Source of the DNA: Erythrobacter donghaensis
GTDB taxonomy: Bacteria; Pseudomonadota; Alphaproteobacteria; Sphingomonadales; Sphingomonadaceae
Reading direction: 5' to 3'
Assembly: GCF_001557325.1 (NCBI RefSeq)
Contig: NZ_LSJS01000052.1
Location: 1-24,838, forward strand
Length of the DNA stretch: 24,838 nt
The translations under genes were made by a program, and so were the position numbers. The first letter of the stretch is position 1, and every line of letters starts with the position of its first letter. Under the pieces are notes generated by a model. That model made no database searches. It worked only from the letters and a program-made list of their open reading frames with translations, and was not told the origin of the DNA. Shown here piece by piece: positions 926 to 18,334 of the stretch.

Positions 926-975
926 GGCGATCCGTTCTTGCGACCCTGCTTGCATGCTGTCCCCGGCGCGCGCTG

Positions 976-2630: not shown

Positions 2631-2643
2631 GGCCGCGCTTGCT

Positions 2644-2663
2644 CTAGCCCGCGCAAGGGCTAG
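2644..2663. repeat. Perfect 7-bp inverted repeat between hemC and tsaD
   Basis: CTAGCCC, a 6-nt GCGCAA spacer and GGGCTAG form a perfect inverted repeat. It fills much of the 44-bp gap between the divergent hemC and tsaD starts. It could be an operator or a leader hairpin on either transcript. No run of T follows it on either strand, so it is not a typical terminator. Confidence 0.5.
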
Positions 2664-2674
2664 ATGGAAGCCGG

Positions 2675-3760
2675 ATGGGTTCAACAGCACACACCTTGGA
2701 AGCCAAAGCACTCGGGCGACTGGTACTCGGGATCGAATCGAGCTGCGACGAGACCGCGGTCGCGCTGGTGCGCGGCGACGGGACGATCGTGGCGCAGGCG
2801 ATCGCCAGCCAGGAGGCCGAGCACGCGCCCTATGGCGGGGTCGTCCCCGAGATCGCCGCGCGCGCCCATGCCGAGCGGCTGGCGCCGATGCTCGCAAAGG
2901 TGATGGGCGACGCGGGCGTAAGCCTCGATGAGGTGGACGCCATCGCCGCCACCGCCGGGCCGGGGCTGATCGGCGGGGTGATGGTCGGCCTCGTCAGCGC
3001 CAAGGCGCTCGCGATGGCCTCGGGCAAGCCGCTGCTGGCGGTCAACCATCTGGAGGGCCACGCGCTCTCGCCGCGCCTTGCCGATGCGGAGCTCGCCTTC
3101 CCCTACCTGCTGCTGCTGGTCTCCGGCGGGCATTGCCAGATCCTCGCCGTCGAGGGCGTCGGGCAATACCGCCGCCTTGCCACCACCATCGACGATGCGC
3201 TGGGCGAGGCCTTCGACAAGACCGCCAAGATCCTTCGCCTCGGCTACCCGGGCGGGCCTGCGGTCGAGCGGCTGGCGCTGGAGGGCGATCCTCACGCGGT
3301 GCCCCTGCCCCGCCCCTTGAAGGGATCGGGCGAGCCGCACTTCTCCTTCGCAGGCCTCAAGAGCGCCGTGCTGCGCGCGGTCGAGAGCGGCGCGCACACG
3401 CCCGCCGATATCGCCGCGAGCTTCCAGCAGGCCGCGGTCGAGTGCCTGATCGACCGGCTCGAACGGGCGCTGGAGCGCGCAGGGCCCTTCCCGGCGCTGG
3501 TCGTGGCCGGGGGCGTGGCTGCCAACAAGACGGTCCGCGGCGCTCTGGAACACCTCGCCGGAAAGCATGGGATGCGCTTCACCGCCCCGCCGCTCGCCCT
3601 GTGCACCGATAACGCCGCGATGATCGCCTGGGCCGGGCTCGAACGCCTCGCACACGAGGGCGCAGACTTCGCTGGCGACCCGCTAGACTTCGTCGCCCGC
3701 CCGCGCTGGCCGCTCGACCCGGCGGCCGAGGCGGTCCGCGGCGCGGGGTACAAAGCATGA
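2675..3760 (+). CDS. tsaD: tRNA N6-adenosine threonylcarbamoyltransferase (TsaD/Gcp)
   Basis: Transfers the threonylcarbamoyl group from TsaC/Sua5-made threonylcarbamoyl-AMP to A37 of ANN-reading tRNAs, acting with TsaB and TsaE. The 361-residue sequence has the whole ASKHA-fold signature: [13 protein letters not shown] (about 18-30), [12 protein letters not shown] (54-65), the metal-binding histidines H125 and H129 in [56 protein letters not shown] and [10 protein letters not shown]. The start is placed at [13 protein letters not shown]; a GGAAG-like ribosome site sits just upstream with short spacing. The stop overlaps the gpsA start (ATGA). It is divergent from hemC, a pairing common in alphaproteobacteria. 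Confidence 0.97.
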
Positions 3761-4788
3761 GTGAGGGGGGCATGAGCGAGCTTCAGACCATCGGCGTCAT
3801 CGGCGCAGGCGCATGGGGCACCGCGCTCGCGCAGATGCTCGCGAGCGACGGGCGCGCGGTGGTGCTGTGGGCCTACGAGCCGGAAGTGGCTTCTGCGATC
3901 AATGCCGAACATCGCAACCCGCTCTACCTGCCCTCCGCCACCCTCGCCCCGACGATCCGCGCGACGGGCGATCTTGCCGATCTCGCGCGGCTCGAGACCG
4001 TGCTGGTCGTCACCCCCGCGCAGGTGCTGGGCAGGGTGCTCGCGGGCCTTCCCGCCCACCCCCGCGACCTGGTTCTGTGCTCGAAGGGGATCGAGGCGGG
4101 CACCGGCAGGCTGATGAACGACGTCGCGCGCGAGGCCGCGCCCGGCAGCGCCATCGCCGTCCTGTCCGGCCCGACCTTTGCGCACGAAGTCGCCGTCGGC
4201 CTGCCGACCGCCGTCACCCTCGCCTGTGGGGGCGGCCTTGCGCAGTGGGAGCGGCTTGCCCCCGCCCTCGCCCGGCCCGCCTTCCGGCCCTACTATTCCG
4301 ACGACGTCGCCGGCGCGGAGATCGGCGGGGCGGTCAAGAACGTGCTCGCCATCGCCTGCGGGGTGGTCGACGGCCTCGGCCTCGGCCAGAACGCGCGCGC
4401 GGCGCTGATCGCGCGGGGCTACGCCGAGATGCTGCGCTTCGGCGAGGCGCTGGGGGCACGCGCGGAGACGCTCGCGGGCCTGTGCGGCCTCGGCGATCTG
4501 GTGCTGACCTGCTCCTCGACCTCGAGCCGCAATTTCAGCCTCGGCAAGGCGCTCGGAGAGGGGGCAAGCGCCGCCGCGCTCATGGCCGACCGCCGCACCG
4601 TGGCCGAGGGCGCGCACACCGCGCCCGTGCTCGCCGGACTGGCCGAGGCACGCGACATCCCCATGCCGATCGTCGCCGCGGTCGACGCGATCCTCACGGG
4701 CGAGGACGCGCGCGCGGTGGTCGCCGCGCTGCTCGCCCGCCCGCTGAAGGCCGAGCGCGACGGGGCCGAACGGGACGTTCCTGCGTGA
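3757..4788 (+). CDS. gpsA: Glycerol-3-phosphate dehydrogenase [NAD(P)+]
   Basis: Reduces dihydroxyacetone phosphate to sn-glycerol 3-phosphate, the backbone for phospholipid synthesis; soluble. The 343-residue product carries the N-terminal Rossmann motif [13 protein letters not shown] (about 13-25), CSKGIE with K110, [12 protein letters not shown] (135-146), the catalytic-lysine segment [13 protein letters not shown] (K194), and [12 protein letters not shown] followed by SRNFSLG. Two starts are possible. The ATG used here overlaps the tsaD stop as ATGA. A second ATG at 3772 gives MSELQTIG, has a GAGG element five bases upstream, and is closer to the usual family N-terminus. The 3' end overlaps the flippase gene by GTGA, so the three genes look translationally coupled. 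Confidence 0.96.
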
Positions 4789-6317
4789 CCGCACCTGCCG
4801 CCGCCACGCCCGCCGACGACAGCGACGATCTCGCCCGGCTCGCCAAGGGCGGGCGCACCAACACGCTGGGCTTCGTGATCCGCCTGATCGCGCGCATCCC
4901 CTTCCTCGTGATCGCCACCCGCCTCTACGGGGCCGAGGCGCTCGGGCGCTTCGCCTCGGCGCTGGTGCTGATCGAGATCATCGCGCTGGTGTGCTCGCTG
5001 GGCGAGAAGCGCGGCCTTGCCCAGCGCCTGTCCGAAGGCGCGGGCGAGGACCGGGAGGCGGAGACCAACCTCGTCTATGACGGCATCCTGCTCGCGCTCG
5101 CCTACTCGGCCGTGGCGGCAGGCGTGCTGCTGCTGTTCCCCGAACCGATGTTTCCCAACGGCACCAACAGCGCGTGGGACATCTGGCTGGTCGCCACCAT
5201 CCCCGCCTTCGCCGTGACCGAGATCCTGCTCGCCGCCCAGGCCTACCGCTTCGACATCGCCACCACGGTGCGCGCGCGGGCGGTGGTCGAGCCGTGGACG
5301 ATCTCGATCGGGGCGGGGGTGTTCTTCCTCATCCCCGCGACCCGCGATGCCGGGCTGGCGCTGGCCTTCATCGCCTCGATCTATGCCGGACTGCTCACCG
5401 CGCTTTGGCCGTTCCTCAGGAGCTACGGCCTGCCCCGCGGCTGGCAGCCGCGCCCGCGCGCGATGGCCGCGATGGCCGCGCGCGCCTTCCCGCTGGTCGG
5501 CGCCGACGCGATCGAGCGCGGGACGCGGCTGCTCGACATCTTCATCCTCGGCCTGTTCGCGCCTCCGCAGGCGGTGGGGATCTACTATGCCGCGCAGCAG
5601 ATCGCCTCACTGCCGCAGAAGCTGAAGACCAGCTTCGAGCCGATTCTCTCGCCGGTCATCACCCGCAACCTGCGCATCGGCAACATGGAGGCGATCGCCG
5701 CGCAGGTGCGGCAGGTGGGGTTCTGGATCATCGCGGTGCAGCTCGGCATCGCGCTGATGCTCGGCGTTCCGGGCGAGGCGGTGATGGGCCTGTGGGGGCC
5801 GGACTATGTCGCGGGCACCGCCGCGCTCGCCTTCCTGCTCGCGGCCGAGGTCGCCGCCTCGATGGCGGTCGTCTCGGAGAGCGTGCTGGTCTACATCGCG
5901 AGGAAGCGCAATCTGGCGATTTCGGTCGGCATCATCGCGCTGCAAGCCGGGCTGACGATCGCGCTGATCGAAGCGGCGGACCGCTTCGGCCTCGGCAAGG
6001 GCTACGAGGCGGCGGGCGCCGCGGGCGCGCTGATGGTGGCGCTGGCGGTCTCGAGCCTCGTCAAGGCGCTGCTGCTGAAGCGCCTGCTGGGCGCAGCCGT
6101 ATCGAACTGGCGCTGGGCGCTGGTCCACGCCGCCGCGCCCGCGGTGGTGGTGGGCTACGGCTTCACCTGGCTCCCCGAATGGACCGAGCTCGTCTTCGGC
6201 GTGCCCGCGATCCTTGCGGTCTATGCCCTGGTGGTCTGGCGGCGCGGCTTCGGCGAGGATGACAAGGTGCTGTTCAGGAAGCAGGTCGTCCCCGACCCGG
6301 CGACCGACCTGCCCTGA
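4785..6317 (+). CDS. Polysaccharide/oligosaccharide flippase-like membrane protein (MOP superfamily)
   Basis: A 510-residue integral membrane protein with about twelve or more hydrophobic segments spaced through its length. The N-terminal segment has the Wzx/MOP look (RTNTLGFVIRLIARIPFLVI, then RLYGAEALGRF), and the middle has IERGTRLLDIFILG followed by AVGIYYAAQQIASLPQKLK, as in lipopolysaccharide O-unit and exopolysaccharide flippases. The GTG start overlaps the gpsA stop (GTGA); the open frame runs far upstream as a shadow of gpsA and was trimmed. The likely role is moving a lipid-linked sugar or similar lipid across the inner membrane; the substrate cannot be read. No glycosyltransferase genes are nearby, which is unusual for a dedicated Wzx, so a housekeeping role next to gpsA is possible. 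Confidence 0.85.
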   Translation: MTAPAAATPADDSDDLARLAKGGRTNTLGFVIRLIARIPFLVIATRLYGAEALGRFASALVLIEIIALVCSLGEKRGLAQRLSEGAGEDREAETNLVYDGILLALAYSAVAAGVLLLFPEPMFPNGTNSAWDIWLVATIPAFAVTEILLAAQAYRFDIATTVRARAVVEPWTISIGAGVFFLIPATRDAGLALAFIASIYAGLLTALWPFLRSYGLPRGWQPRPRAMAAMAARAFPLVGADAIERGTRLLDIFILGLFAPPQAVGIYYAAQQIASLPQKLKTSFEPILSPVITRNLRIGNMEAIAAQVRQVGFWIIAVQLGIALMLGVPGEAVMGLWGPDYVAGTAALAFLLAAEVAASMAVVSESVLVYIARKRNLAISVGIIALQAGLTIALIEAADRFGLGKGYEAAGAAGALMVALAVSSLVKALLLKRLLGAAVSNWRWALVHAAAPAVVVGYGFTWLPEWTELVFGVPAILAVYALVVWRRGFGEDDKVLFRKQVVPDPATDLP

Positions 6318-6408
6318 GTCCGTTTGCAACCTCGAGCATGGGCGAAGCCGCCTCAGGCTGCTAATGCCCGCGCCCTGTTAACGATTCGTGCCGGAGAACC
6401 CCGTCCTC

Positions 6409-6981
6409 ATGTCCGCCGATCTGACCGCCTACCTGCCGCTGATCGTCATTGCGCTTGTCGCGCTCGCGGTGCTGGTGTGGATCATCAGCCGTCAGGGCCG
6501 CCGCGCAAGGGTGACCGACGAGGACGGCGCGCCCGGCATCTTCCGCGACGTGCTCGAGGAAGGCGCCGCGCCCGCCGCGCGCAACCAGGCGCTGATCGAC
6601 GCGCCGCGCGGGCTCGAGGCGATCCAGGGCGAGCTTTCGGCCATGGCCAACGCGCAGGTCACCGCCGCCTCGCCGCTCGGCACCGATGCCGAGGCGGGCC
6701 CCGCCCCCGAGCCAGCGCCTGCCCCGGTCGCCGCCGGCCCCGCCGACGACCTCACGCGCATCAAGGGCCTCGGCCCCAAGCTCGCCGCGCTGCTCGGCGA
6801 GTTCGGCATCACCACCTTCGCCCAGATCGCCGCGTGGACGCCCGCGGAGATCGAGCGGATCGACGCCAAACTCGGCCGATTCTCGGGGCGGATCGTCCGC
6901 GACCAATGGGTGGAGCAAGCCAGACTACTCGCTGCGGGCGACGAAAGCGGCTTCACCGCAAGATTTGGCAATAATGGATGA
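6409..6981 (+). CDS. Membrane-anchored helix-hairpin-helix protein
   Basis: A 190-residue protein of unknown function. One N-terminal membrane helix (about residues 5-25) is followed by a basic stop-transfer stretch (RQGRRAR). An acidic, Pro/Ala-rich linker (about 30-110) leads to a C-terminal HhH-type domain: DDLTRIKGLGPKLAALLGEFGI, then TFAQIAAWTPAEIERID. The KGLGPKLAALL hairpin is a classical non-specific DNA-binding motif and is shared with COG3743-type proteins, some of which are annotated as 5' nuclease-like. I saw no nuclease catalytic residues. The ATG at 6409 is preferred over the GTG at 6388 because GGAGA lies about twelve bases upstream. A membrane-tethered DNA binder is possible, but that is inference. 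Confidence 0.8.
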   Translation: MSADLTAYLPLIVIALVALAVLVWIISRQGRRARVTDEDGAPGIFRDVLEEGAAPAARNQALIDAPRGLEAIQGELSAMANAQVTAASPLGTDAEAGPAPEPAPAPVAAGPADDLTRIKGLGPKLAALLGEFGITTFAQIAAWTPAEIERIDAKLGRFSGRIVRDQWVEQARLLAAGDESGFTARFGNNG

Positions 6982-7053
6982 AATACCCCGAAGGTTGACG
7001 TCCAAACCGTGTTACAGTCCCGACTTGGGATTCGTTAACGCGGGAGAAGGCCG

Positions 7054-7410
7054 ATGGCTTTGCGAATCTTGGTGGCCGAGGACGAATTCATCACCGCCTT
7101 CGATCTGTGCGATACCTTCGAAGAGGCGGGCTACGAAGTGCAGGGGCCGCATGCCGGGATTTCCTCGGCGATGCTCGCCTGCCAGAAGGAACGCCCCGAT
7201 GTGGCGCTGCTCGATATCGAGCTGGCGGACGGGCTGAGCCTTGAACTCGCGCAGAAGCTCATCGACGAGAACGTGCCGGTGATCCTCCATTCCGAACCCG
7301 AAGACACCCGCGCGCTCGCGATGCGCTTCCCCAGGGCGACGACGCTGGTGAAGCCCTGCCCGCCGGCCAAGCTGCTCGACACGGTGAGCCGGGTGGTGAC
7401 GCCGGCGTGA
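7054..7410 (+). CDS. Single-domain response regulator (CheY-like receiver)
   Basis: A 118-residue stand-alone receiver domain without an output domain. It has the acidic cluster AEDE (8-11), the phospho-acceptor D54 in ALLDIELADG, a Ser in VILHSEP (about 80) in place of the usual switch Thr, and the conserved Lys in LVKPCPP (K100). A strong ribosome site, GGAGAAGG, ends three bases before the ATG. It resembles the small receivers common in sphingomonads, which often act as phosphate sinks or partners of HWE/HisKA2 kinases. No cognate kinase is adjacent; the hybrid kinase near 22-23.5 kb has its own partner. Stop at 7410 is followed at once by a GC-rich hairpin. Confidence 0.9.
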   Translation: MALRILVAEDEFITAFDLCDTFEEAGYEVQGPHAGISSAMLACQKERPDVALLDIELADGLSLELAQKLIDENVPVILHSEPEDTRALAMRFPRATTLVKPCPPAKLLDTVSRVVTPA

Positions 7411-7441
7411 GGGGCCCTGAGCCCCTTCCCTTGGGGAGGGG
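7411..7441 (+). terminator. Overlapping GC hairpins after the response regulator; possible terminator
   Basis: Two hairpins compete for the same bases. The first is GGGGC / GCCCC with loop CCTGA (7411-7425). The second is CCCCTTCC / GGGAGGGG with a CTTG tetraloop (7422-7441, one G-T wobble). Only AATT follows, with no T run, so intrinsic termination would be weak. GC-rich intergenic hairpins of this kind seem common in sphingomonads. Confidence 0.35.
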
Positions 7442-7702
7442 GAATTGCGGGCACCGGTGATGAAGCAACCTCGCGCAGCCCCTTGCCCGTCCGCCCCAAC
7501 CCTGCGATGGCTGGGATAAGCAAGACAGGCAGGAGCAATTGCGCGTGGCTGTATGGCAAACAGGCGGCCCCGCGCCGAGATCCGCGTCCACAGCCCTCGG
7601 GCATGTCGGCCCGCAAGGCCGAACGGCCGCCCGCAGCGATGCGACCGCAAGGTCGCGTGAGCGAGGATTTCGCGCGCCGGATGGCGTGCGGGAAGCAAAA
7701 GC
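7442..7702 (+). other. Non-coding stretch with tandem stem-loops upstream of maiA
   Basis: No convincing gene lies between the response regulator and maiA; open frames crossing it are shadows or low-complexity. Its 3' part holds three stem-loops in about 85 bases. They are TCGGCC/GGCCGA with loop CGCAA (7606-7622), GCGACC/GGTCGC with a GCAA tetraloop (7641-7656), and CGCGCGCC/GGCGTGCG with loop GGAT and one G-T pair (7671-7690). The last ends about 12 bases before the maiA ATG and so could affect its ribosome site. It may be a structured leader or one copy of a dispersed repeat; the rest of the genome is needed to decide. Confidence 0.5.
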
Positions 7703-8338
7703 ATGAAACTCTACGGCTACTTCCGCTCGTCAACCTCCTACCGCCTGCGCATCGCCCTCGGCCTCAAGGGCCTCGCCTTCGAGAACATCCCGGTCGATCT
7801 GCGCACCGGCGCGAACAAGGACGCTGCCTTCACCCAGCGCAATCCCTTCGGCTCGCTCCCGATGCTGGAAGCCGACGGGCGCGACCGAGCGCAGTCGATG
7901 GCGCTGCTCGAATGGCTCGACGAGGCCTATCCGAGCCCGCGCTTCCTGCCCGCCGATATCGAGGCGCGCTACACCGTGCGCGAGCTGGCCTATGCCATCG
8001 CGACCGAGATCCATGCGGTCAACAACCTGCCGGTGCTCAAATATCTCAAGGACCCGCTCGGCCACTCACAGGACGAGATCGACATCTGGTATCGCACGTG
8101 GCTCAAGCGCACGCTCGATCCGGTGGAAGCGCGCCTCGCACAGCTGGGCACCGGCGATTTCCTTCATGGCGATGCGCCGGGGCTGTTCGAGATCGTGTTG
8201 ATCCCGCAACTCGCCAATGCGCGGCGATTCGATTACGACCTTGGCGCCGGTCCGCACATGACCCGCATCGAGGCCGCCTGCCTCGCGCTCCCCGCCTTCG
8301 CCGCGGCGCACCCCGACAGGCAGATCGACGCGCAATAA
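7703..8338 (+). CDS. maiA: Maleylacetoacetate isomerase (zeta-class glutathione transferase)
   Basis: Isomerises 4-maleylacetoacetate to 4-fumarylacetoacetate with glutathione, the penultimate step of tyrosine/homogentisate breakdown; cytosolic. The 211-residue protein starts MKLYGYFRSSTSYRLRIAL, containing the zeta-class active-site SSxxxxR motif (Ser at 9-10, Arg at 14). It continues with the glutathione-site region NPFGSLPMLEADG and the QSMALLEWLDEAYP segment, then an all-helical C-terminal domain. Family length is about 210-220. The following gene, 25 bp downstream, is a fumarylacetoacetase, which makes the pathway assignment firm. Homogentisate dioxygenase is not in the window. The leader carries strong hairpins. 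Confidence 0.93.
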   Translation: MKLYGYFRSSTSYRLRIALGLKGLAFENIPVDLRTGANKDAAFTQRNPFGSLPMLEADGRDRAQSMALLEWLDEAYPSPRFLPADIEARYTVRELAYAIATEIHAVNNLPVLKYLKDPLGHSQDEIDIWYRTWLKRTLDPVEARLAQLGTGDFLHGDAPGLFEIVLIPQLANARRFDYDLGAGPHMTRIEAACLALPAFAAAHPDRQIDAQ

Positions 8339-8363
8339 GCACAACGTCTCGGGAGGACACCAA

Positions 8364-9374
8364 ATGAAACTCGCAACCCTCGACAACGGCACGCGCGACG
8401 GCATGCTGGTGGTGGTCAGCAAGGACCTCACCCGCTGCTGCGCGGCAGGCTACATCGCGCCGACGATGCAGGCCGCGCTCGACAACTGGGAGCGGGTCGC
8501 GCCCGAATTGGAAGTGCTCGCCCGCGATGTCGAGCACGAGGCGGTGCCGTGCGAGCGCTTCCACGAGCGCCAGGCGCACTCGCCGCTCCCGCGCGCCTAT
8601 CAGTGGGCCGATGGCAGCGCCTATATCAACCATGTCGAACTGGTGCGGCAGGCGCGCGGGGCCAAGGTGCCCGAGAGCTTCTACTCGGACCCGCTGATGT
8701 ACCAGGGCGGCTCGGACTCCTTCCTGCGCCCGCGGCAGGACATCCCGCTGGGCGATCCGGCGTGGGGCTGCGACATGGAGGGCGAGATCGCCTGCATCAC
8801 CGGCGACGTGCCGATGGGCGTGAGCGTCGAAGACGCCGCTACGCACATCCGCCTGCTGATGCTGGTCAACGACGTGTCCTTGCGCGGGCTGATCCCGGCC
8901 GAGCTGGAGAAGGGCTTCGGCTTCTTCCAGTCCAAGCCCGCGAGCGCCTTCTCGCCGGTCGCGGTGACGCCCGACGAGCTTGGCGATGCGTGGAAGGACG
9001 CGCTCATTCACCTGCCGCTGATGGTCGACCTCAACGGCCAGCCCTTCGGCCGCGCGAACGCCGGGGTCGATGCGACCTTCAACCTCGCGCAGCTCGTCGC
9101 CCACGCCGCCAAGACCCGGAACCTCGCCGCGGGCACGATCATCGGCACCGGCACGGTCTCGAACAAGGGCGCCGACGGCGGCCCGGGCACCCCCGTCAGC
9201 GAGGGCGGCGCAGGCTATTCCTGCATCGCCGAGATCCGCATGATCGAGACGATCCGCGATGGCGCGCCCATGACGCCGTTCATGCAAGCCGGCGACACCG
9301 TTCGCATCGAGATGCGCGACGATCACAACCACTCGATCTTCGGCGCGATCGAACAGCATGTTGTAGCCATGTAA
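8364..9374 (+). CDS. fahA: Fumarylacetoacetase
   Basis: Hydrolyses fumarylacetoacetate to fumarate and acetoacetate, the last step of tyrosine catabolism. The 336-residue protein has the FAH-fold C-terminal domain. Probable metal ligands are D109 in FYSDPLMYQGG, E139 and E141 in GCDMEGEIAC, and D170 in LVNDVSLR; the catalytic Lys is probably K191 in FFQSKPASAFSP. These are assigned by analogy with the animal enzyme. GTGTVSNKG and the C-terminal GDTVRIEMRDDHNHSIFGAIEQ are also family-typical. A good ribosome site, GGGAGGA, precedes the ATG by six bases. It is cotranscribed with maiA (25-bp gap). The specific FAH role rather than a generic FAA-hydrolase is supported by this pairing. Confidence 0.92.
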   Translation: MKLATLDNGTRDGMLVVVSKDLTRCCAAGYIAPTMQAALDNWERVAPELEVLARDVEHEAVPCERFHERQAHSPLPRAYQWADGSAYINHVELVRQARGAKVPESFYSDPLMYQGGSDSFLRPRQDIPLGDPAWGCDMEGEIACITGDVPMGVSVEDAATHIRLLMLVNDVSLRGLIPAELEKGFGFFQSKPASAFSPVAVTPDELGDAWKDALIHLPLMVDLNGQPFGRANAGVDATFNLAQLVAHAAKTRNLAAGTIIGTGTVSNKGADGGPGTPVSEGGAGYSCIAEIRMIETIRDGAPMTPFMQAGDTVRIEMRDDHNHSIFGAIEQHVVAM

Positions 9375-9387
9375 TGCAGGGGTATTT

Positions 9388-9401
9388 GCTCCCCGGGGAG
9401 C
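9388..9401. repeat. 14-bp perfect palindrome downstream of fahA
   Basis: GCTCCCCGGGGAGC reads the same on both strands and starts 14 bases after the fahA stop. As RNA it would need a CCGG loop. No T run follows on the plus strand, so it is a poor intrinsic terminator; a dimeric protein site is also possible. Confidence 0.4.
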
Positions 9402-9460
9402 GCCGTTGCGCAGGTACCGCATGATGGTAGCCCCGTATCGCCCCGTCTGATGTTCCCGAA

Positions 9461-9478
9461 ATGTTTCACGTGAAACAT
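9461..9478. promoter_or_regulatory. parS: parS centromere site (ParB-binding)
   Basis: The 18-base perfect palindrome ATGTTTCACGTGAAACAT contains the 16-base sequence TGTTTCACGTGAAACA, identical to the consensus chromosomal parS bound by ParB/Spo0J across bacteria. It lies between fahA and an aldehyde dehydrogenase gene, 59 bases before the latter's ATG, and is intergenic. ParB loads here as a CTP-dependent clamp, spreads, and recruits SMC and ParA for origin segregation. No parA or parB is in the window, which is common because parS sites are scattered around the origin. I saw no second copy here. Confidence 0.93.
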
Positions 9479-9537
9479 TGGCGGCGCGAGCGAAGTGCCG
9501 CTAAAGCCAAACCTCCCCAGCAAGAGCGAGCCTGACA

Positions 9538-10989
9538 ATGACCACCTACCCCACCCTCAAACTGTTCATCGACGGCCAGTGGATCGAGACGGGCGATGCC
9601 GGGGCGATGGAGGTGGTCAACCCCGCAACCGGCGCGGGCATAGCGCAGTGCCCCAAGGCGGGCCCCGCCCAGCTCGACGCCGCCTTGAAGGCCGCGGGCG
9701 ATGCCTTCCCGGCGTGGAGCGCGACCTCGGGCGCCGAGCGCCACGCGATCCTGCGCCGCGCCGCCGATCTGCTGCGCGAGCGCGCGCCCGCCATCGCCAA
9801 GGTCGTCACCGCCGAAATGGGCAAGCCGCGCGCGCAGGCGCAGGGCGAGATCACCGGCTCGGCCGATATCATTGATTTCCTTGCCGAAGAAGCCAAGCGC
9901 CGCGGGGGTCGGCTGATCCCGACCCGCGGCCGGCAGCTGATCGCGCAGATGGTGACGCACGAGCCCGTCGGCCCGGCGGTGCTGCTGACCCCGTGGAACT
10001 TCCCGGTGAACCTCCCCGCCAAGAAGATCGCAGGCGCGCTCGCGGCGGGGTGCACCGCGATCCTCAAGCCCGCCGAGAACACGCCCGGTTCGGCGCAGCT
10101 GCTGGTCGAATGCTTCGTCGATGCGGGCCTACCGGCCGGGGTGCTGAACCTCGTCCACGGCGATCCCGGCCCGATTGCCGAGCGCCTCGTCACCTCGCCG
10201 GTCACCCGCAAGGTGAGCTTCACCGGATCGACCGCGGTGGGCAAGCAGCTCGGCGCGCTCGCGGCGACCCACATGAAGCGCTTCGCGCCCGAGCTCGGCG
10301 GCCATGCGCCGGTGATCGTCAGCAAGCACGCCGATCTTGCCCGCGCGGTCCAGATGTGCGCCACGACCAAGTTCCGCAATGCCGGCCAGGTCTGCGTCTC
10401 GCCGACCCGCTTCCTCGTGGCGCGCGAGATCTACGATAGCTTCGTCGCCGAATTCGCGTCCATCGCGGGCAAGATCAAGGTCGGCGATCCTGGCGCGGAT
10501 GACAGCGTCGAAATGGGCCCGCTCGCCCATGCGCGGCGGATTTCCGCGATGGAGCAGGTGGTCGCCGACAGCGGTGGCAATCGCGGCGAGGTCGTCACCG
10601 GCGGCTCGGTGATCGAGAGCACCGGCTTCTTCTTCCAGCCCACCGTGATCGCCAACCCCGCGCCCGACAGCCGCTTCATGCTGGAGGAGCCCTTCGGCCC
10701 GATCGCCGGGATTGTCCCCTTCGAGACAATCGAGGACGCGGTCGGGATCGCCAATTCGCTGCGCTACGGGCTTGCCGCCTATGCCTTCTCGGGCAATCTC
10801 GACGAGGCGCACTACCTCGGCCGGGCGCTCAGGGCCGGGATGGTGGGGATCAACCAGCTGATCGTGTCCTCGCCCGAGACTCCCTTCGGCGGGGTGGGCG
10901 ACAGCGGGTTCGGATCGGAAGGCGGCGAGGAAGGCTACCTGGCCTTCACCGACACCAAGCTGGTGATGCTCGCCAAATCGGGCGGGTAG
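9538..10989 (+). CDS. NAD(P)-dependent aldehyde dehydrogenase, succinate-semialdehyde dehydrogenase-like
   Basis: Oxidises an aldehyde to the acid with NAD(P)+; soluble. The 483-residue product has the full ALDH set: TPWNFPVNLPAKKIAGALAAG with N154, KPAENTPGSA with K177, the nucleotide-binding FTGSTAVGK, the general base E252 in FAPELGGHAP, the catalytic C286 in RNAGQVCVSPTRF, and EEPFGPIAGIVPF near 390. The C-terminal ETPFGGVGDSGFGSEGG and the Arg soon after the catalytic Cys resemble GabD-type succinate-semialdehyde dehydrogenases. Substrate remains inference. No obvious Shine-Dalgarno is seen; the start follows homologous N-termini (LKLFIDGQW). A parS site lies 59 bases upstream, so ParB spreading might affect its transcription. 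The neighbouring tyrosine genes are separate. Confidence 0.9.
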   Translation: MTTYPTLKLFIDGQWIETGDAGAMEVVNPATGAGIAQCPKAGPAQLDAALKAAGDAFPAWSATSGAERHAILRRAADLLRERAPAIAKVVTAEMGKPRAQAQGEITGSADIIDFLAEEAKRRGGRLIPTRGRQLIAQMVTHEPVGPAVLLTPWNFPVNLPAKKIAGALAAGCTAILKPAENTPGSAQLLVECFVDAGLPAGVLNLVHGDPGPIAERLVTSPVTRKVSFTGSTAVGKQLGALAATHMKRFAPELGGHAPVIVSKHADLARAVQMCATTKFRNAGQVCVSPTRFLVAREIYDSFVAEFASIAGKIKVGDPGADDSVEMGPLAHARRISAMEQVVADSGGNRGEVVTGGSVIESTGFFFQPTVIANPAPDSRFMLEEPFGPIAGIVPFETIEDAVGIANSLRYGLAAYAFSGNLDEAHYLGRALRAGMVGINQLIVSSPETPFGGVGDSGFGSEGGEEGYLAFTDTKLVMLAKSGG

Positions 10990-10992
10990 AGC

Positions 10993-11139
10993 TTATCCGA
11001 GCAACCGCGACAGCAGTGACTTCGGCTTCTCCATCGGCTGGATGCGGCCATAGCGCGCGCGGCGCGAGTATTCGTTCGAAAGGCAAACAGTACGGCGCAT
11101 GGGATCCGGTCCGCTGGACCAGATAGTCGGCTTTTCCAT
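10993..11139 (-). CDS. Small basic protein of unknown function (48 residues)
   Basis: A 48-codon reading frame beginning MEKPTIWSSGPDPMRRTV and ending PMEKPKSLLSRLLG. It has an Arg-rich middle (YSRRARYGRI) and the tetrapeptide MEKP at both ends. A GGGGA element lies about eight bases before the ATG. It converges with the aldehyde dehydrogenase gene, whose stop is only three bases away. No membrane helix or known domain is visible. The coding call rests on the start context, moderately high GC at third positions and a plausible basic composition; I have an impression, unverified, that similar mini-proteins occur in related genomes. An overlapping longer frame on the same strand looks like a shadow. 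Confidence 0.6.
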   Translation of the reverse strand: MEKPTIWSSGPDPMRRTVCLSNEYSRRARYGRIQPMEKPKSLLSRLLG

Positions 11140-11160
11140 CGTTGCGTCCCCGAATCGGCG

Positions 11161-11310
11161 GCTTTGTTATGCTGCGGAAGCTAACACCAAACCTGTGGAT
11201 AAAACGAGTCCTAATGACCTTCTGCGCGAAATTGCTTAAGAGGAAGTCAATAGGGAGAAGCCCGGTGAAAGCGGTTTGGTTCCCGATTTTGCGCAAATCC
11301 GGTTAAACAG
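11161..11310. other. AT-rich intergenic island
   Basis: By direct count this 150-base stretch is about 47% GC, far below the rest of the window. It sits between the 48-residue gene and the end of the lactate monooxygenase-like gene and contains no convincing reading frame. It holds a perfect DnaA box and a CtrA-like near-match (TTAA, seven bases, TCAA at 11236-11250). It could be the promoter region of the small gene, a regulatory or replication-related site, or recently acquired DNA. Confidence 0.5.
11194..11202 (-). promoter_or_regulatory. Perfect DnaA-box sequence
   Basis: TGTGGATAA on the plus strand is TTATCCACA on the minus strand, the strict DnaA consensus. It lies within the AT-rich island and about 1.7 kb from parS. 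A single 9-mer can occur by chance, and no cluster of further boxes was found nearby, so replication function is only a possibility. Confidence 0.4.
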
Positions 11311-11319
11311 CGCGTGGGG

Positions 11320-12486
11320 CTAGCCGATGGTGCGGCGCACACCCGCAGCGCGCACGTCGGCGAGCGTGGGGTAGCCGTTGACCGCCATCAGCAAATCGGC
11401 CTCGGCGAGGATCGAGCGCAGCACCCAGGCGGCACCCTCGGCCCCGCCGAGCGCGAGGCCGTAGGTGTAGGGCCGCCCGACGCCGACCGCGCGCGCGCCC
11501 ATCGCCAGCGCCTTCACCGCATCGGTGCCCGAGCGCACGCCGCTGTCGAACAGCACCGGCACATCGCCCGCCGCGGCGACGACATCTTCGAGGAGGTCGA
11601 TGGTCGCGATCCCGCCGTTCGCCTGCCGTCCGCCATGGTTCGAGCAATAGATTGCGTCCGCCCCGCTATCGACCGCTTGGGCCGCGTCGTCGCGGTGGCA
11701 GATGCCCTTGAGGACGATCGGCAGCTTGGTCACCGACTTGAACCACGCCATGTCGTCCCAGGTCAGCACCTGGCCGAATGTGGCCGCCCAGGTGAAGATC
11801 GCCGCCGCCGGATCCTCCTCCGGAGGCTTGGCCAGCAGCGAGCGGAACACGGGATCGGTGAAGTAGTTCTGGAGCACCTTGCCGCGCAGCTGCGGGAAGT
11901 TCGAGGCGTTGAGATCGCGCGGCCGCCAGCCCGTCACCCAAGTGTCGAGCGTCACCACCAGCGCCTTGTATCCGGCGTCTTCCGCGCGGCGGATCAGGCT
12001 TTCGGCGAGCTCGCGGTTCTTGGGGGTGTAGAGCTGGAACCACGCGGGCGTCTCCCCGCAGGCGCCCTTCACGTCCTCCAGTGGATCGTTCGCGAGGGTC
12101 GAGGCGCAGAACGGCACCCCCGTCAGCGCCGATGCGCGCGCGGCGGCGATGTCGCCGTGACGGTCCTGCGAGGCCTCGCCATTGAGGCCGATGGGGGCCA
12201 TGAACAGCGGGGTTGGGTAGCGGTGGCCGAAGAGTTCGATCGACAGGTCGCGCGTCGAGCAATCGACCATCATGCGCGGCACCATGCCCCAGTGGTGGAA
12301 GGCGGCCGCGTTCTGGTCCTGCGTGTGTTCATCCCCGCAGCCGCCCGCGACATAATTCGTCAGCATCGGCCCGAGCGCCTCGTGCGCGCGCTTTTCAAGC
12401 GTGGCGAAATCGACCGGATAGGTGGGCAGGATGCCCCTGAGGCCGGCGTTGTAGATCTCGTTCTGCATCGCGCCGAAATAGGTCAT
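11320..12486 (-). CDS. FMN-dependent alpha-hydroxy-acid oxidase, lactate 2-monooxygenase-like
   Basis: A 388-residue flavoenzyme of the glycolate oxidase/lactate dehydrogenase family. Visible motifs are YVAGGCGDEHTQ near 45, MAPIGLNG near 96, LDTWVTGWRPRDL near 180, LPIVLKG (K260), the catalytic H284 with R287 in YCSNHGGRQANGG, and FDSGVRSG with GVGRPYTYG for phosphate binding. The N-terminal QNEIYNAGLRGILPT and the TW..GWRPRDL...NFP segment closely recall mycobacterial lactate 2-monooxygenase (lactate + O2 to acetate + CO2), rather than LldD. Oxidase or dehydrogenase chemistry cannot be excluded. The ATG giving MTYFGAMQ has GGGAGAG upstream. It lies downstream of the cio operon on the same strand, separated by 128 bp with a hairpin repeat. 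Confidence 0.87.
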   Translation of the reverse strand: MTYFGAMQNEIYNAGLRGILPTYPVDFATLEKRAHEALGPMLTNYVAGGCGDEHTQDQNAAAFHHWGMVPRMMVDCSTRDLSIELFGHRYPTPLFMAPIGLNGEASQDRHGDIAAARASALTGVPFCASTLANDPLEDVKGACGETPAWFQLYTPKNRELAESLIRRAEDAGYKALVVTLDTWVTGWRPRDLNASNFPQLRGKVLQNYFTDPVFRSLLAKPPEEDPAAAIFTWAATFGQVLTWDDMAWFKSVTKLPIVLKGICHRDDAAQAVDSGADAIYCSNHGGRQANGGIATIDLLEDVVAAAGDVPVLFDSGVRSGTDAVKALAMGARAVGVGRPYTYGLALGGAEGAAWVLRSILAEADLLMAVNGYPTLADVRAAGVRRTIG

Positions 12487-12518
12487 GGCGGCGGCTCTCT
12501 CCCTGCGTTCTTGTGGTC

Positions 12519-12564
12519 GCATCGCTTAACGCCGAAAACCGGTTCCCACTTTTCGGCGCGATGC
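12519..12564. repeat. Alphaproteobacterial-type intergenic hairpin repeat
   Basis: The inner stem CGCCGAAAA / TTTTCGGCG (12530-12538 and 12550-12558, perfect 9 bp) encloses an 11-base loop, CCGGTTCCCAC. An outer stem GCATCG / CGATGC (12519-12524 and 12559-12564) extends it past a five-base bulge. The core AAAACCGGTTCCCACTTTTC resembles a dispersed intergenic element I recall from many alphaproteobacterial genomes. It lies between the DCC-type gene and the lactate monooxygenase-like gene; it may affect mRNA ends or stability there. Confidence 0.7.
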
Positions 12565-12614
12565 TTGTTTGCCCGGGAGATCAGCCGATGCGGCGCGCAA
12601 GGGCAAGGGCTTTT

Positions 12615-12956
12615 CTAGGCGAACAGCCGTTGCAGGCGCGGGCGCAGGCGCAGGAAGCGGATGTAGAGCGCCTCGAGCAGACCCAGCACACGCGGGTTCC
12701 TGGCGGCAAGACCGAGCGGGCGCAGCAAGGGGATCGCGCGCCACATCGCGGCAAAGGCTGCCGCGCCATCGTGGATCACCCCGTCCTCCTCGGCATGGAA
12801 GCGGGCGAGCAGCTGCGCGCGGTCAACGGGGCAGGACGGGTCGCTCCCCTCGGCAACATCGATGAAGGCGATCCGCCCGCGCCGGTCGAGCCGCCGCATC
12901 AGCGCGATCTCGCGCAGGCAGAGCGGGCAGGCGCCGTCGTACCAGACCTTGACCAT
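12615..12956 (-). CDS. DCC/DUF393-type thiol-disulfide oxidoreductase-like protein
   Basis: A 113-residue protein starting MVKVWYDGACPLCLREI, which contains the defining DxxCPLC motif of the DCC1-like (DUF393) family, a thioredoxin-fold group with a CxxC pair. The remainder (FIDVAEGS, then DGVIHDGAAAFAAMWRAIP and a helical C-terminus ending RPRLQRLFA) matches the family layout. The ATG overlaps the stop of the upstream DUF2474-type gene as TGATG, which fixes the start. It is the last gene of the cioAB operon. Exact function of the family is unclear; a redox or thiol-handling role beside a sulfur cluster is inference. Confidence 0.85.
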   Translation of the reverse strand: MVKVWYDGACPLCLREIALMRRLDRRGRIAFIDVAEGSDPSCPVDRAQLLARFHAEEDGVIHDGAAAFAAMWRAIPLLRPLGLAARNPRVLGLLEALYIRFLRLRPRLQRLFA

Positions 12957-13090
12957 CAGGGCGCGATCCACAGGCGGATGACGTAAGCGACCGCGCCGAG
13001 CACGGCGACGCTCGCGGCCCAGATGCCGACCATCCAGAGCAGGCGCTGCCAGAAGGGGCCCTCGGGCGGTTGCTCGGGGGGCTTGAGCAT
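12956..13090 (-). CDS. DUF2474-type small membrane protein, probable CioAB accessory micro-subunit
   Basis: A 44-residue protein with a Pro-rich N-terminus (MLKPPEQPPEGPFWQRLLW) and one membrane helix (about residues 18-42, including VGIWAASVAVLGAVAYVIRL). This is the pattern of DUF2474 proteins, which are encoded after cyanide-insensitive bd oxidase subunits and look analogous to CydX/CydS. It lies 34 bp after cioB and overlaps the next gene by TGATG. AGGG in GGTAGGGCAACGATA precedes the ATG. The assignment rests on length, topology, key residues and position. It probably stabilises the oxidase, by analogy. Confidence 0.85.
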   Translation of the reverse strand: MLKPPEQPPEGPFWQRLLWMVGIWAASVAVLGAVAYVIRLWIAP

Positions 13091-13124
13091 TATCGTTGCC
13101 CTACCGCTTCGCTGCTTGAGGGCA

Positions 13125-14120
13125 TCAATGATACCCCTCGTCCGCGACCTTGCCGCGGAACACCCAATAGGCCCAGGCGGTGTAGCCGATGATCAGCGGC
13201 ATGGTGATCGCGACCCCGATCAGCATGAAGATCTGACTGCGTTCGGGCGCAGCGGCGTCCCAGATGGTGAGGCCGGGGGGCACGACATAGGGCCAGATCG
13301 TCACGCCGAGCCCGCTCATCCCGAGGAAGAACAGCGCGATGGCGAGCCAGAAGGGCTTGGAGTTGCGGTCGCGCGTGATCGCCCGCAGCATCGAGACGGC
13401 GATGATCGCGGTCACCAGCGGCACCGGCGCGACCCAGTAGATCTGCGGCGCGGCGAGCCAGTGCGCGGCATATTCGGCGTTGAGCGTTACGTTGTAGAGG
13501 CTCACCGCCCCCATCAGCGCGATGGTGGCGATGGCCGCGCGCACCGCGAGCTTCCTCGCGTGGGCCTGCTCCTCGCCGTCGAGCTTCCAGATCAGCCAGG
13601 TGCTCCCCAGCAACGCATAGCCCGCGACCGTGCCGAGGCCGGTGAGCAGAGTGTAGGGGGTGAGCCAATCCCACCAGCTCCCGGCATAGGCGCGGCCCTC
13701 CACCTCGATCCCCTGCAGCAGCGCGCCCAGCGTCATCCCCTGTGCGAGCGCGGCGACGAGGCTGCCGCCGGTGAAGGCCATGTCCCAGAACTTCTGGTGC
13801 GCCGGGTCGCGCCAGCGATATTCGAAGGCGACCCCGCGGAACACGAGCCCGAGCAGCATCGCGATGATCAGCGGATAGGTCGCGGGCAGGATCACCGCGT
13901 AGGCCAGCGGGAAGGCGGCGAACAGCCCCCCTCCCCCCAGCACCAGCCAGGTCTCGTTCCCGTCCCACACCGGCGCGATCGAGTTCATCGCCCGGTCGCG
14001 CTCGCGCCCGGCGTTGAAGGTCGGGAACAGGATGCCGATGCCGAGGTCGAAGCCGTCCATCACCACATAGGCGAAGACGGCGAAGGCGATGATGAAGGCC
14101 CAGATGACGGTCAGGTCCAT
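13125..14120 (-). CDS. cioB: Cyanide-insensitive cytochrome bd-type quinol oxidase, subunit II
   Basis: A 331-residue polytopic membrane protein. The start MDLTVIWAFIIAFAVFAYVVMDGFDLGIG is the hallmark of CydB/CioB, followed by IAPVWDGNETWLVLGGGGLFAAFPLAYA and FRGVAFEYRWR, both near-universal in the family. About eight membrane helices are visible. It partners subunit I to reduce O2 to water with electrons from ubiquinol. The start is the ATG that overlaps the cioA stop (TGATG); a GTG one codon upstream is less likely. The micro-subunit gene follows after 34 bp. Confidence 0.95.
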   Translation of the reverse strand: MDLTVIWAFIIAFAVFAYVVMDGFDLGIGILFPTFNAGRERDRAMNSIAPVWDGNETWLVLGGGGLFAAFPLAYAVILPATYPLIIAMLLGLVFRGVAFEYRWRDPAHQKFWDMAFTGGSLVAALAQGMTLGALLQGIEVEGRAYAGSWWDWLTPYTLLTGLGTVAGYALLGSTWLIWKLDGEEQAHARKLAVRAAIATIALMGAVSLYNVTLNAEYAAHWLAAPQIYWVAPVPLVTAIIAVSMLRAITRDRNSKPFWLAIALFFLGMSGLGVTIWPYVVPPGLTIWDAAAPERSQIFMLIGVAITMPLIIGYTAWAYWVFRGKVADEGYH

Positions 14121-15574
14121 CACACCGGCTCCTTCTCGTCAGGCGCCTGGGTGGGCAGCGTCTCGGCGCCGCCCGGGTTCTGCGTCGGCCCGGGGGTTAT
14201 CCCGGCGGTGCGGATCGGGCCGACATCGCCGCGCTTGACGCCGTATTCGCCCGGCTGCGGCGTCTTGCCCATGAGGCGCAGGATATACCACACCCCGATG
14301 CCGAACACGGTGAAATAGACGAGGACGAAGGCCAGCAGCGAGGCCGCGACCGCGGGCGCATCGAGCGGGCTGGCGGCGTCGGCGGTGCGGAGCAGCCCGT
14401 AGATCACGAAAGGCTGGCGGCCGACTTCGGTGGTGATCCATCCGGCCAGCACCGCGGCAAATCCGCTCGGCCCCATCAGCACGGCGGCGCGGTGGAGCCA
14501 GGGCATGTCATAGAGCTTGCCCCGCACCCGCCCCCACAGGCTCCACAGCCCGATCCCGAGCATCGCAAAGCCGATGCCGACCATGATGCGGAAGCTCCAG
14601 AAGACGATCGGCACGGGCGGCTCCATGTCGTCGGGCACCGTGTCGAGCCCGGCGAGCGGCGCGTCGAGATCGTGCTTCAGGATCAGCGAGGAGGCCTTGG
14701 GTATCTCGATCGCATAGCGCACCGTCTTGGCCTCGCTGTCGGGGATGCCGAACAGGATCAGCGGCGCACCTTCGGGGTGGCTCTGGTAGTGGCCCTCCAT
14801 CGCCATCACCTTGGCGGGCTGGTGCTCGAGCGTGTTCAACCCGTGCATGTCGCCGGCGAAGATCTGCGCCGGGGTGACGATCGCGGCCATCCACATCGCC
14901 ATCGAGAACATTTTTCGGGCATGCGGGTTGGCGCGGTCCTTGAGCAAGTGCCACGCGCCGACTGCGCCGACCACGAAGGCCGTCGTCAGGTAGGCTGCCA
15001 TCACGGTGTGGACGAGGCGATAGGGGAAGCTGGGGTTGAAGATGATGTCGAGCCAGCTCGGCCCCGGAAGGAACTGGCCATTCGCGCCCATTTCGAAACC
15101 CGTGGGCGTGTGCATCCAGCTGTTCACCGAGAGGATCCAGAAGGCCGAAACGAAGGTGCCCAGCGCCACCATGAAGGTCGCGAAGAAGTGCAGCTTCTTG
15201 CCGACCTTGTTCATCCCGAACAGCATGACGCCGAGGAAACCCGCCTCGAGGAAGAAGGCGGTCAGCACCTCGTAGGCCATCAGCGGCCCGATCACCGGCC
15301 CGGCCCTGTCGGAGAACACCGACCAGTTGGTGCCGAACTGGTAGGACATGACGATCCCCGAGACGACGCCCATCGCAAAGGCGATCGCGAAGATCTTGAG
15401 CCAGTATTTGAACAGGTCGAGATAGACCGCCTTGCCGGTCCTGAGCCACAGCGCCTCGAGCACCATCAAGTAGCTCGCCAGCCCGATCGAGAAGGCCGGG
15501 AAGAAGAAGTGGAAGCTCACCGTGAAGGCGAACTGGATCCGCGCGAGCAGCAGGGCGTCGAGGTGTTCGAACAT
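14120..15574 (-). CDS. cioA: Cyanide-insensitive cytochrome bd-type quinol oxidase, subunit I
   Basis: A 484-residue haem-bearing subunit. Probable haem ligands are H22 in SFHFFFPAFSIG, H189 in RLVHTVMAAYL and M331 in FWSFRIMVGIG; E102 and E110 lie in the conserved YEVLTAFFLEAGFLG segment. GWITTEVGRQPFVIYG is the conserved C-terminal signature. The stretch between the GDMHGLNTLEHQPAK region and M331 is short, lacking the long Q-loop insert of E. coli CydA, which points to the CIO class. CIO enzymes oxidise ubiquinol and resist cyanide and sulfide. The gene lies 104 bp after the TauE/SafE gene on the same strand. AAGGGA precedes the ATG. The tail after the last helix is soluble and Pro-rich. 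Confidence 0.95.
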   Translation of the reverse strand: MFEHLDALLLARIQFAFTVSFHFFFPAFSIGLASYLMVLEALWLRTGKAVYLDLFKYWLKIFAIAFAMGVVSGIVMSYQFGTNWSVFSDRAGPVIGPLMAYEVLTAFFLEAGFLGVMLFGMNKVGKKLHFFATFMVALGTFVSAFWILSVNSWMHTPTGFEMGANGQFLPGPSWLDIIFNPSFPYRLVHTVMAAYLTTAFVVGAVGAWHLLKDRANPHARKMFSMAMWMAAIVTPAQIFAGDMHGLNTLEHQPAKVMAMEGHYQSHPEGAPLILFGIPDSEAKTVRYAIEIPKASSLILKHDLDAPLAGLDTVPDDMEPPVPIVFWSFRIMVGIGFAMLGIGLWSLWGRVRGKLYDMPWLHRAAVLMGPSGFAAVLAGWITTEVGRQPFVIYGLLRTADAASPLDAPAVAASLLAFVLVYFTVFGIGVWYILRLMGKTPQPGEYGVKRGDVGPIRTAGITPGPTQNPGGAETLPTQAPDEKEPV

Positions 15575-18258: not shown

Positions 18259-18263
18259 CACGG

Positions 18264-18270
18264 TTTCTCC
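18264..18270 (-). promoter_or_regulatory. Ribosome binding site fixing the metallohydrolase start
   Basis: GGAGAAA on the minus strand, five bases before the ATG at 18258. It decides for that codon against the in-frame ATG at 18282, which has no such element. Confidence 0.7.
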
Positions 18271-18288
18271 AATCACTTTCATAAATCG

Positions 18289-18317
18289 TGTATATGTATT
18301 GCCATGGGCGCAGTCAA
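18289..18317 (-). promoter_or_regulatory. Sigma-70-type promoter for the sulfur/cio block
   Basis: On the minus strand TTGACT (18317-18312) and TATACA (18294-18289) are separated by exactly 17 bases, close to the housekeeping consensus. Predicted transcription start is near 18282. The -35 element lies just before the divergent peroxiredoxin start, so the two directions share regulatory DNA. The AT-rich stretch 18271-18300 is a candidate operator for the ArsR-type regulator encoded at 18964. Confidence 0.65.
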
Positions 18318-18334
18318 GGACTATGCTCACCCGC

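Follow-up and report, generated by a model that had tools for sequence, protein, structure and literature searches.

The 24,838-nucleotide contig of Erythrobacter donghaensis analyzed here (NZ_LSJS01000052.1; hereafter, the window) carries an exact copy of the 16-bp chromosomal parS sequence, TGTTTCACGTGAAACA, between a fahA-like gene and an aldehyde dehydrogenase gene. This palindrome is probably one of a set of scattered parS-type sites at which the chromosomal ParB protein is loaded far from the replication origin; the binding of ParB and the function of the sites are predictions. The parS sequence itself has long been known. What appears to be new is the presence of dozens of consensus copies that reach the terminus, together with helically phased modules. 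No report of dispersed full parS sites in this clade, or of a set of dozens extending to the terminus, was found in the portions of the mostly open-access literature that were searched, and the papers named below by PMC number are cited from excerpts.

Number, Map Position, and Conservation of the Sites

Copies of the 16-mer with at most one mismatch were counted in each of 114 genus genomes. The distribution was found to be bimodal, with 9–86 copies in 47 genomes and 0–4 copies in 67, and a reversed-pattern control gave 0 copies in all 114. In a family-wide count over 397 genomes, more than four copies were found in 7; four of these are members of the high-copy set, and the others hold 14, 8, and 6 copies. 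Three of the 397 genomes have a single copy of the reversed pattern. Outside the high-copy set, G252 contains a cluster and seven scattered copies, and G185 contains five scattered parS-type copies; these two genomes are possibly independent starts of the dispersed state. Two clusters were observed in G421, also of the family.

The copy numbers at up to one mismatch in G024, G100, G009, and G001 were determined to be 63, 33, 28, and 20, respectively, and the 63 copies of G024 comprise 52 exact and 11 one-mismatch sites. The G024 sample that was examined in detail covers 1.46 Mb (47% of the genome) in stretches mostly chosen around sites. It holds 51, 11, 0, and 1 matches at 0, 1, 2, and 3 mismatches, respectively, where 200 composition-matched palindromes gave means of 0, 0.005, 0.1, and 1.5. 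The unselected region from 1 to 400 kb of G024 yielded 5, 2, 0, and 0 matches in the same classes; one more exact copy, at 99,999, is split by the border of a stretch. The 16-mer is also the commonest 16-bp palindrome in the G024 sample, with 51 copies versus 2 for the runner-up. The dispersed copies are uniform from origin to terminus in G024, G047, G100, and G086 (Kolmogorov–Smirnov p-values of 0.88, 0.49, 0.52, and 0.98, respectively), and a parS cluster adjoins parB in all eight genomes whose parB region was read. Even spacing was considered and rejected, as the dispersed sites are no more even than chance (P values of 0.11 and 0.60).

An earlier note on this DNA had placed the window in the origin-proximal domain, a step that rests on the rule that parS marks the origin. 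The map position of the window strain was taken from two relatives, G024 and G047. The G024 chromosome is a single contig of 3,090,363 bp. In the 73 stretches sampled, its GC skew is mostly negative to ~0.96 Mb, weakly positive thereafter, and turns back between ~2.5 and 2.7 Mb. The parB gene (948.6–949.1 kb) and an eight-site parS cluster (950.1–955.0 kb) lie at the skew turn, which is the skew origin. Twenty window genes were tried against G024: 12 of them (17 to 15574, fahA among them) are collinear with G024 at 174.7–189.7 kb, two (17326 and 18323) match near 3,071 kb, ~200 kb away round the circle, and the rest gave one weak match elsewhere and five cases without a match in the sample. 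The fahA site of G024, at 184,019 and with one mismatch, is located at 0.50 of the arm from the parB cluster. The corresponding value for G047 (single contig, 3,279,145 bp) is 0.51, with parB and not the skew as the anchor. The dnaA gene is not near parB in G024 or G047, in agreement with a report that Sphingomonadales do not keep dnaA near the origin and that the better anchor may be parAB (PMC8116508). Origin-proximal placement is rejected on the skew, parB, and the locus position in G024, and on parB and the locus position in G047; by the same mapping, the site would not mark the origin region of the window's own genome either.

The dispersed positions are largely common to different species. 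Sixty of 106 dispersed sites were fetched from G047, G009, G001, and G004. The locations of 59 of these 60 were found in the G024 sample, and 46 coincide with a G024 site (17 of 19, 14 of 20, 7 of 8, and 8 of 12, respectively). Two of the misses, one each from G009 and G004, fall on the G024 site at 99,999 that is cut by the stretch border. Since the sample represents 47% of the genome, the location of 59 of 60 sites and their coincidence, mostly within tens of bases, do not come from site-favoring sampling alone. A parS-type site was observed in the same place at G024:C1:2037439, L189:1559 (G009), L210:1519 (G004), and L177:1388 (G047); in G024 it is within a called gene, where the frame reads MFHVKH by eye.

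The window FahA is 96% identical to the FahA of Erythrobacter oryzae (and others). The best 80 of 494 fahA loci, mainly from Erythrobacter, Porphyrobacter, and Altererythrobacter, were compared in a tree of 81 FahA proteins, of which 80 rows could be scored for a site after fahA at up to two mismatches. All 22 site-bearing rows are within one 36-row clade (support 97/93), and none of the 45 rows outside this clade has the site. In these 22 loci, window included, the site comes after the fahA stop codon. The majority-base frequency among the 22 carriers (21 related loci and the window) is 0.95 in the 16-mer versus 0.51 and 0.44 in the two flanks, which were taken as the 38 bases beyond two neighboring bases on each side. 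Six loci of the low-copy sister lineage (L033:12931, L036:13925, L039:12947, L047:13040, L050:12149, and L053:12977) have another palindrome, which is close to AAGTTTCAATTGAAACAA (2–3 mismatches from parS) and lies 1–3 kb after fahA.

ParB, Gene Context, and Accessory Modules

A match to TIGR00180 over the cut-off was found in 60 of the 61 sampled genomes of the genus, with best values mostly near 1e-55 and a few that are much weaker. A single PF02195 match was obtained for G024, G100, G001, G009, and the low-copy genome G016, and further matches were obtained for G047 (3) and G086 (5). The presence of one ParB-domain protein in four high-copy genomes means that no Noc-like reader is needed.

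The changes in the dispersed one-mismatch copies are not a random set. The 83 dispersed one-mismatch copies in six genomes include 25 T5C, 21 T1G, 17 C8T, and 7 A7G variants. The fractions of T5C in G009, G100, G086, G004, G047, and G024 are 6/6, 5/6, 3/4, 7/23, 3/34, and 1/10, respectively. The cluster copies of eight genomes, one of them low-copy, are composed of 37 exact, 11 T5C, and 1 T1C sites. T5C thus accounts for 25 of 83 dispersed and 11 of 12 cluster one-mismatch copies, where 1 in 24 is expected by chance (p = 3e-15), and its occurrence in both sets points to one reader. T1G and C8T are confined to dispersed copies in the genomes examined and may be weaker sites. Exact copies are nearer to the origin than one-mismatch copies, with median arm positions of 0.41 versus 0.81 in G024 (p = 0.0023), 0.11 versus 0.54 in G047 (p = 0.00064), 0.33 versus 0.56 in G100 (p = 0.22), and 0.31 versus 0.76 in G086 (p = 0.19). 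The stratified test over the four genomes gave p = 5e-5, which is the floor of 20,000 permutations.

The ParB sequences of 18 high-copy and 10 low-copy genomes were compared, and a column was taken to separate the groups if at least 85% of each group agreed. Fifteen alignment columns separate the two groups, 7 of which fall within 29 residues of the DNA-binding domain (Caulobacter positions 152, 156, 161, 163, 164, 167, and 180). The T-to-I change of the clade corresponds to Caulobacter position 161, using the numbering given in the excerpt of PMC7383237 and an alignment with 6t1f. The parS-contacting residues R173 and G201, conserved among ParB proteins (PMC7383237), are unchanged in the high-copy ParB.

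The genes of G024 were called with a codon-usage script, not a standard annotator, at a coding fraction of 0.896. Of the 54 analyzable dispersed sites, 46 are intergenic and 8 are inside called genes, although the latter may include wrongly called starts. The 46 intergenic sites are distributed over 25 convergent, 18 co-directional, and 3 divergent gaps. Convergent gaps make up 12.5% of the intergenic bases and hold 25 of the 46 sites (p = 1e-11), and divergent gaps make up 32.7% and hold 3 of the 46 (p = 2e-5).

The earlier note had further suggested that ParB spreading from the window site could silence or tune the aldehyde dehydrogenase gene. Among the 21 related loci with the site, the dehydrogenase adjoins it in 11 and does not in 9; the contig of L031 ends too soon. 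Eight of the 9 have the dehydrogenase start ~1.2 kb further on and a reverse-strand open reading frame (ORF) of 371–393 codons that stops 0–19 bp from the site. The test for a reverse ORF is mechanical, as 7 of the 11 dehydrogenase-adjoining loci also show an open reverse frame, and the call for the eight loci rests also on the 1.2 kb of room before the dehydrogenase. On one reading, in which the order of events is conjectural, the site originally separated two convergent genes and was left in front of the dehydrogenase on loss of the reverse-strand gene. Tuning of the dehydrogenase is unsupported, since the gene does not adjoin the site in 9 of the 20 judgeable loci, and it was rejected as a general role on these loci and on the avoidance of divergent (promoter) gaps in G024.

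In G024, 45 of the 54 dispersed sites are accompanied by a one-sided array of ~11-bp units (about YAGACCCCNTT) that extends over 44–99 bp. Every one of the 45 arrays has the palindrome at the 3′ end of its C-rich strand, and the gaps are mostly in phase; two weaker opposite-strand matches overlap these arrays. The G024 sample contains 59 array matches, 12 of which are without a site within 80 bp, and 9 dispersed sites are without an array. The site-less arrays include those at 145780–145845, 278803–278889, 559814–559890, and 660996–661061. None of the eight G024 cluster sites has an array. A KOPS-like (FtsK orienting polar sequence) polarity was rejected, as the array orientation is mixed on both arms when the strand column is read by eye.

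The A/T signal in the flanks of the dispersed sites peaks at 10.75 bp, and its mean power was found to be 3.8, 3.6, 3.0, 2.0, and 1.8 in G024, G047, G004, G009, and G001, respectively. The peak of the cluster sites is at 11.0 bp and is weak (1.7), similar in this to G001. The phase test chose the orientation by power, which inflated the coherence, and the cluster sites, which have low power, are also coherent (R = 0.69 at 10.75 bp). The power of the better flank is above the 95th percentile of random positions at 41 of 54 sites in G024, 14 of 20 in G047, 7 of 12 in G004, 6 of 11 in G100 (one stretch of which was too short and was dropped from the flank analysis), 5 of 20 in G009, 1 of 8 in G001, and 1 of 8 in G086; 6 of the 47 cluster sites also exceed it. 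The G024-type unit itself reaches threshold at 45 of 54 sites in G024, 15 of 20 in G047, 6 of 12 in G004, 0 of 11 in G100, and 0 of 47 cluster sites. By eye, the periodic unit is about GCTTTGNCGNT in G009 (L182–L201) and TTTTGCGC-like in G100 (L242–L252), and these species-specific units look as if they were evolving in concert across loci. A periodicity that recurs with species-varying units, and that is missing in some species, suggests DNA shape over a fixed RNA or DNA word.

A second element is GAACA, placed exactly 6 bp beyond the palindrome; it is present at 25 of the 133 dispersed sites read versus 0 of 47 cluster sites. The counts for G024, G047, G004, G100, G009, G001, and G086 are 3/54, 1/20, 4/12, 2/11, 4/20, 5/8, and 6/8, respectively. 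When offsets of 0–23 were scanned in five genomes, the offset was always 6, except once at 5.

The features of the window are listed in Table 1. The 16-mer is the sole match at up to three mismatches within the window, where 0.03 is expected by chance; one match was reached in 3 of 100 shuffles of the window. As the earlier note had it, the site matches the consensus at 16 of 16 positions; the palindrome that it described as 18 bp is real and is in fact 20 bp. The distance of 59 bases between the end of the 18-mer (9478) and the ATG was confirmed, as were both flanking genes. The identification as parS looks genuine, as the same sequence forms exact sites in the parB-adjacent clusters of relatives and T5C is shared by dispersed and cluster copies. 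The left flank (100 bp) of the window site has an A/T power of 4.28 at 10.75 bp, which is just under the 95th percentile (4.41) for the better of two flanks at random positions and is below the array threshold. The adjoining periodic stretch is suggestive only of a weak counterpart of the arrays of relatives. GAACA is not present 6 bp after the window palindrome. No GC-rich hairpin followed by a T run, as in an intrinsic terminator, was found at the window site, where TTGGCGGC follows the 16-mer.

Table 1. Features of the window at and around the parS-type site
Feature	Positions	Strand	Basis
parS-type 16-mer TGTTTCACGTGAAACA, exact	9462-9477	.	sequence, consensus match
Perfect 20-bp palindrome enclosing the 16-mer	9460-9479	.	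sequence
Weak degenerate 11-bp periodic stretch (tagccccgtat / cgccccgtctg / atgttcccgaa) abutting the site	9428-9461	+	sequence
fahA-like gene, fumarylacetoacetase family / FAA hydrolase (PF01557/PF18288)	8364-9374	+	domain matches
Aldehyde dehydrogenase family gene (PF00171); not a constant neighbor of the site	9538-10989	+	domain match

Elsewhere in the window, the ORF at 17326–18726 (− strand) resembles the bifunctional sulfur transferase/dioxygenase Blh family, below the cut-off, and its G024 match is ~200 kb from the fahA locus.

Proposed Role of the Sites and Alternative Explanations

We propose that ParB would bind the dispersed copies in the cell and would load there as a cytidine triphosphate (CTP)-dependent clamp. 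The sites would be kept mostly away from promoters and would be read by the single chromosomal ParB. With the strongest sites retained near the origin, the origin cluster would still win segregation. The helically phased A/T stretch is a predicted bent or wrapped DNA module that may aid formation of the complex, and GAACA may act as an accessory half-site. Taken a step further, the dispersed copies may add local compaction or the loading of SMC (structural maintenance of chromosomes) complexes along the arms. Selection for weak sites far from the origin would explain the gradient of exact copies and would fit the disfavor of mid-arm sites in Caulobacter.

Several observations weigh against this proposal. 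Extra parS clusters in mid-arm are disfavored in Caulobacter (PMC5815017), and many working sites are therefore expected to be harmful unless they are weak or controlled. The array of the G024 type was found at 0 of 8 fetched sites in G001, 0 of 8 in G086, 0 of 11 in G100, and 2 of 20 in G009. T5C is the most common dispersed change overall but a minority in G024, G047, and G004, which often carry T1G and C8T instead. Taken genome by genome, the bias of exact copies toward the origin reaches significance in just two of the four, the four have ancestral sites in common, and faster mutation of late-replicating DNA could yield the same gradient. G007, with 16 sites, keeps the ancestral residue at 4 of the 7 DNA-binding-domain positions, and the ParB substitutions of the clade are indistinguishable from plain descent, a correlation only, because the high-copy genomes are close kin. 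Finally, 13 of the 35 scored clade rows are without the fahA site (one of the 36 could not be scored). To fit its distribution to the FahA tree, 11 gains or losses are required, and well-supported branches force at least 5 of these; the fahA-locus copy is therefore not indispensable.

The alternative that survives best, although an unlikely one, is that the dispersed copies are the sites of another DNA-binding protein, either a Noc-like paralogue or a transcription factor, that shares the parS sequence. Palindromes of 16 bp dispersed round the chromosome are the pattern of Noc sites (PMC7383237), and extra ParB-domain proteins are found in G047 and G086. However, G024, G100, G001, and G009 have their single PF02195 match despite 63, 33, 20, and 28 copies, so that there is no Noc-like paralogue in these four genomes as far as PF02195 can tell; transcription factors without a ParB domain were not searched for. 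The sharing of T5C between dispersed and cluster copies is a further point against a separate reader. The G024 copies avoid divergent promoter gaps, unlike operators, and the terminus is not depleted in the four genomes mapped for spread, unlike the case of Noc sites.

It is quite improbable that the sites are transcription terminators in which the C-rich 11-bp array provides a Rho-binding stretch of RNA and the palindrome an RNA hairpin or roadblock at the 3′ end. The G024 array is on the sense strand of the preceding gene in 35 of 45 cases, often starting just past the stop codon, and the 3′ position of the palindrome on the C-rich strand, without exception among the 45, suits such an arrangement. 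Rho sites are described as 78 nt with C in excess of G and a C every 11–13 nt, followed by a hairpin (PMC6407284). Of the 54 dispersed G024 sites, 43 pass these criteria, compared with 57% of random positions and, among free gene 3′ ends, 208 of 574. A C/G ratio above 1.5 is found at 57% of the G024 sites versus 13% of random positions, and the circumstantial support for a terminator in G024 is thus real. A hairpin would be expected to show compensatory paired changes, but the G024 sample contains 0 two-mismatch copies beside 51 exact and 11 one-mismatch copies. The window flank fails the Rho criteria (a C chain of five, where six are needed), and no T run follows the palindrome. The unit seen by eye in G009 and G100 differs from the C-rich one, and the fetched sites of G001 and G086 have no array.

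A selfish or mobile palindrome that spread without a function of its own is very improbable. The large, clade-limited copy number, the periodic arrays beside many copies, and the 11 gains or losses at the fahA locus are what such an element might produce. It is hard to square with positions that are shared among species (46 of the 59 located) while flanks are not: the G024 flanks differ beyond the array, contrary to what defines mobile repetitive extragenic palindromic (REP) or miniature inverted-repeat transposable (MITE) elements, and the 16-mer is kept far better than its flanks at the fahA locus. The G024 sample also lacks a decayed two-mismatch tail. That the window site is an ordinary origin-proximal parS, as the earlier note held, is scarcely tenable, since its perfect consensus and the location of parS near the origin in most bacteria (PMC5815017) stand against a fahA locus half an arm away from the parB cluster in two single-contig relatives and the same sequence all along both of those chromosomes.

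A broader picture built on ParB loading at dispersed sites is possible but doubtful at present. The chromosome may be polycentric, with one ParB and dozens of parS sites on both arms, many of them at convergent 3′ ends like eukaryotic cohesin, often ending a phased bendable module and graded in strength from origin to terminus.

parS is treated as an origin marker, and a clade with dozens of consensus sites extending to the terminus breaks this rule. A practical caution is that, within the clade, a perfect parS site is uninformative on the distance to the origin. The clade offers a natural experiment on the harm that mid-arm parS sites cause in other bacteria, and it raises testable questions on the loading of ParB and SMC at many places, on what sets the permissive zone, and on whether DNA shape governs the loading of ParB.

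Comparison with Known Systems

The closest counterpart is the parS of the chromosomal ParABS systems of Caulobacter, Bacillus, and Streptomyces, which has the same 16-mer and a cluster adjoining parB, as found here. In the excerpt available, known parS sites are described as almost exclusively near the origin, even in genomes with 22 copies (PMC5815017). The copies described here differ from these origin-confined sites by running evenly to the terminus in four genomes.

The Noc protein of Bacillus nucleoid occlusion has Noc-binding sites (NBS) that are likewise palindromic, numerous, and distributed round the chromosome at places other than the origin (PMC7383237). However, the sequence in this clade is that of parS and not NBS, no additional ParB paralogue was found with PF02195 in four genomes, and the sites are missing near the terminus in the Noc system, whereas they are uniform in the four genomes mapped here.

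SegB and ParB are unrelated proteins. A partition protein with dozens of scattered palindromic sites is nonetheless a feature common to the SegB system of Sulfolobales and the proposal made here. Dozens of SegB sites are found over the chromosome, are best conserved near its own genes, and have been proposed to act in DNA compaction (PMC12284271). The system is archaeal, with mainly intragenic sites and no spreading according to the portion of that report consulted, whereas the sites described here are mostly intergenic and their predicted reader is a CTP clamp.

The gyrase motif of E. coli has a phased 10-bp variation in G/C content that has been read as an ability of the DNA to bend, and gyrase cleavage is enriched downstream of transcribed operons (PMC6379681). 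This phased composition resembles the 10.75-bp A/T periodicity beside many of the sites. The stretch found here, compared by sequence alone, is one-sided, ends in a parS-type palindrome, and has a unit that varies by species. In Pseudomonas aeruginosa, ParB makes contacts with half-parS sequences on the chromosome in addition to the origin-side parS1–4 (PMC10419367). Those contacts, as given in the excerpt, are with half sites, whereas the sites kept in this clade are full 16-mers.
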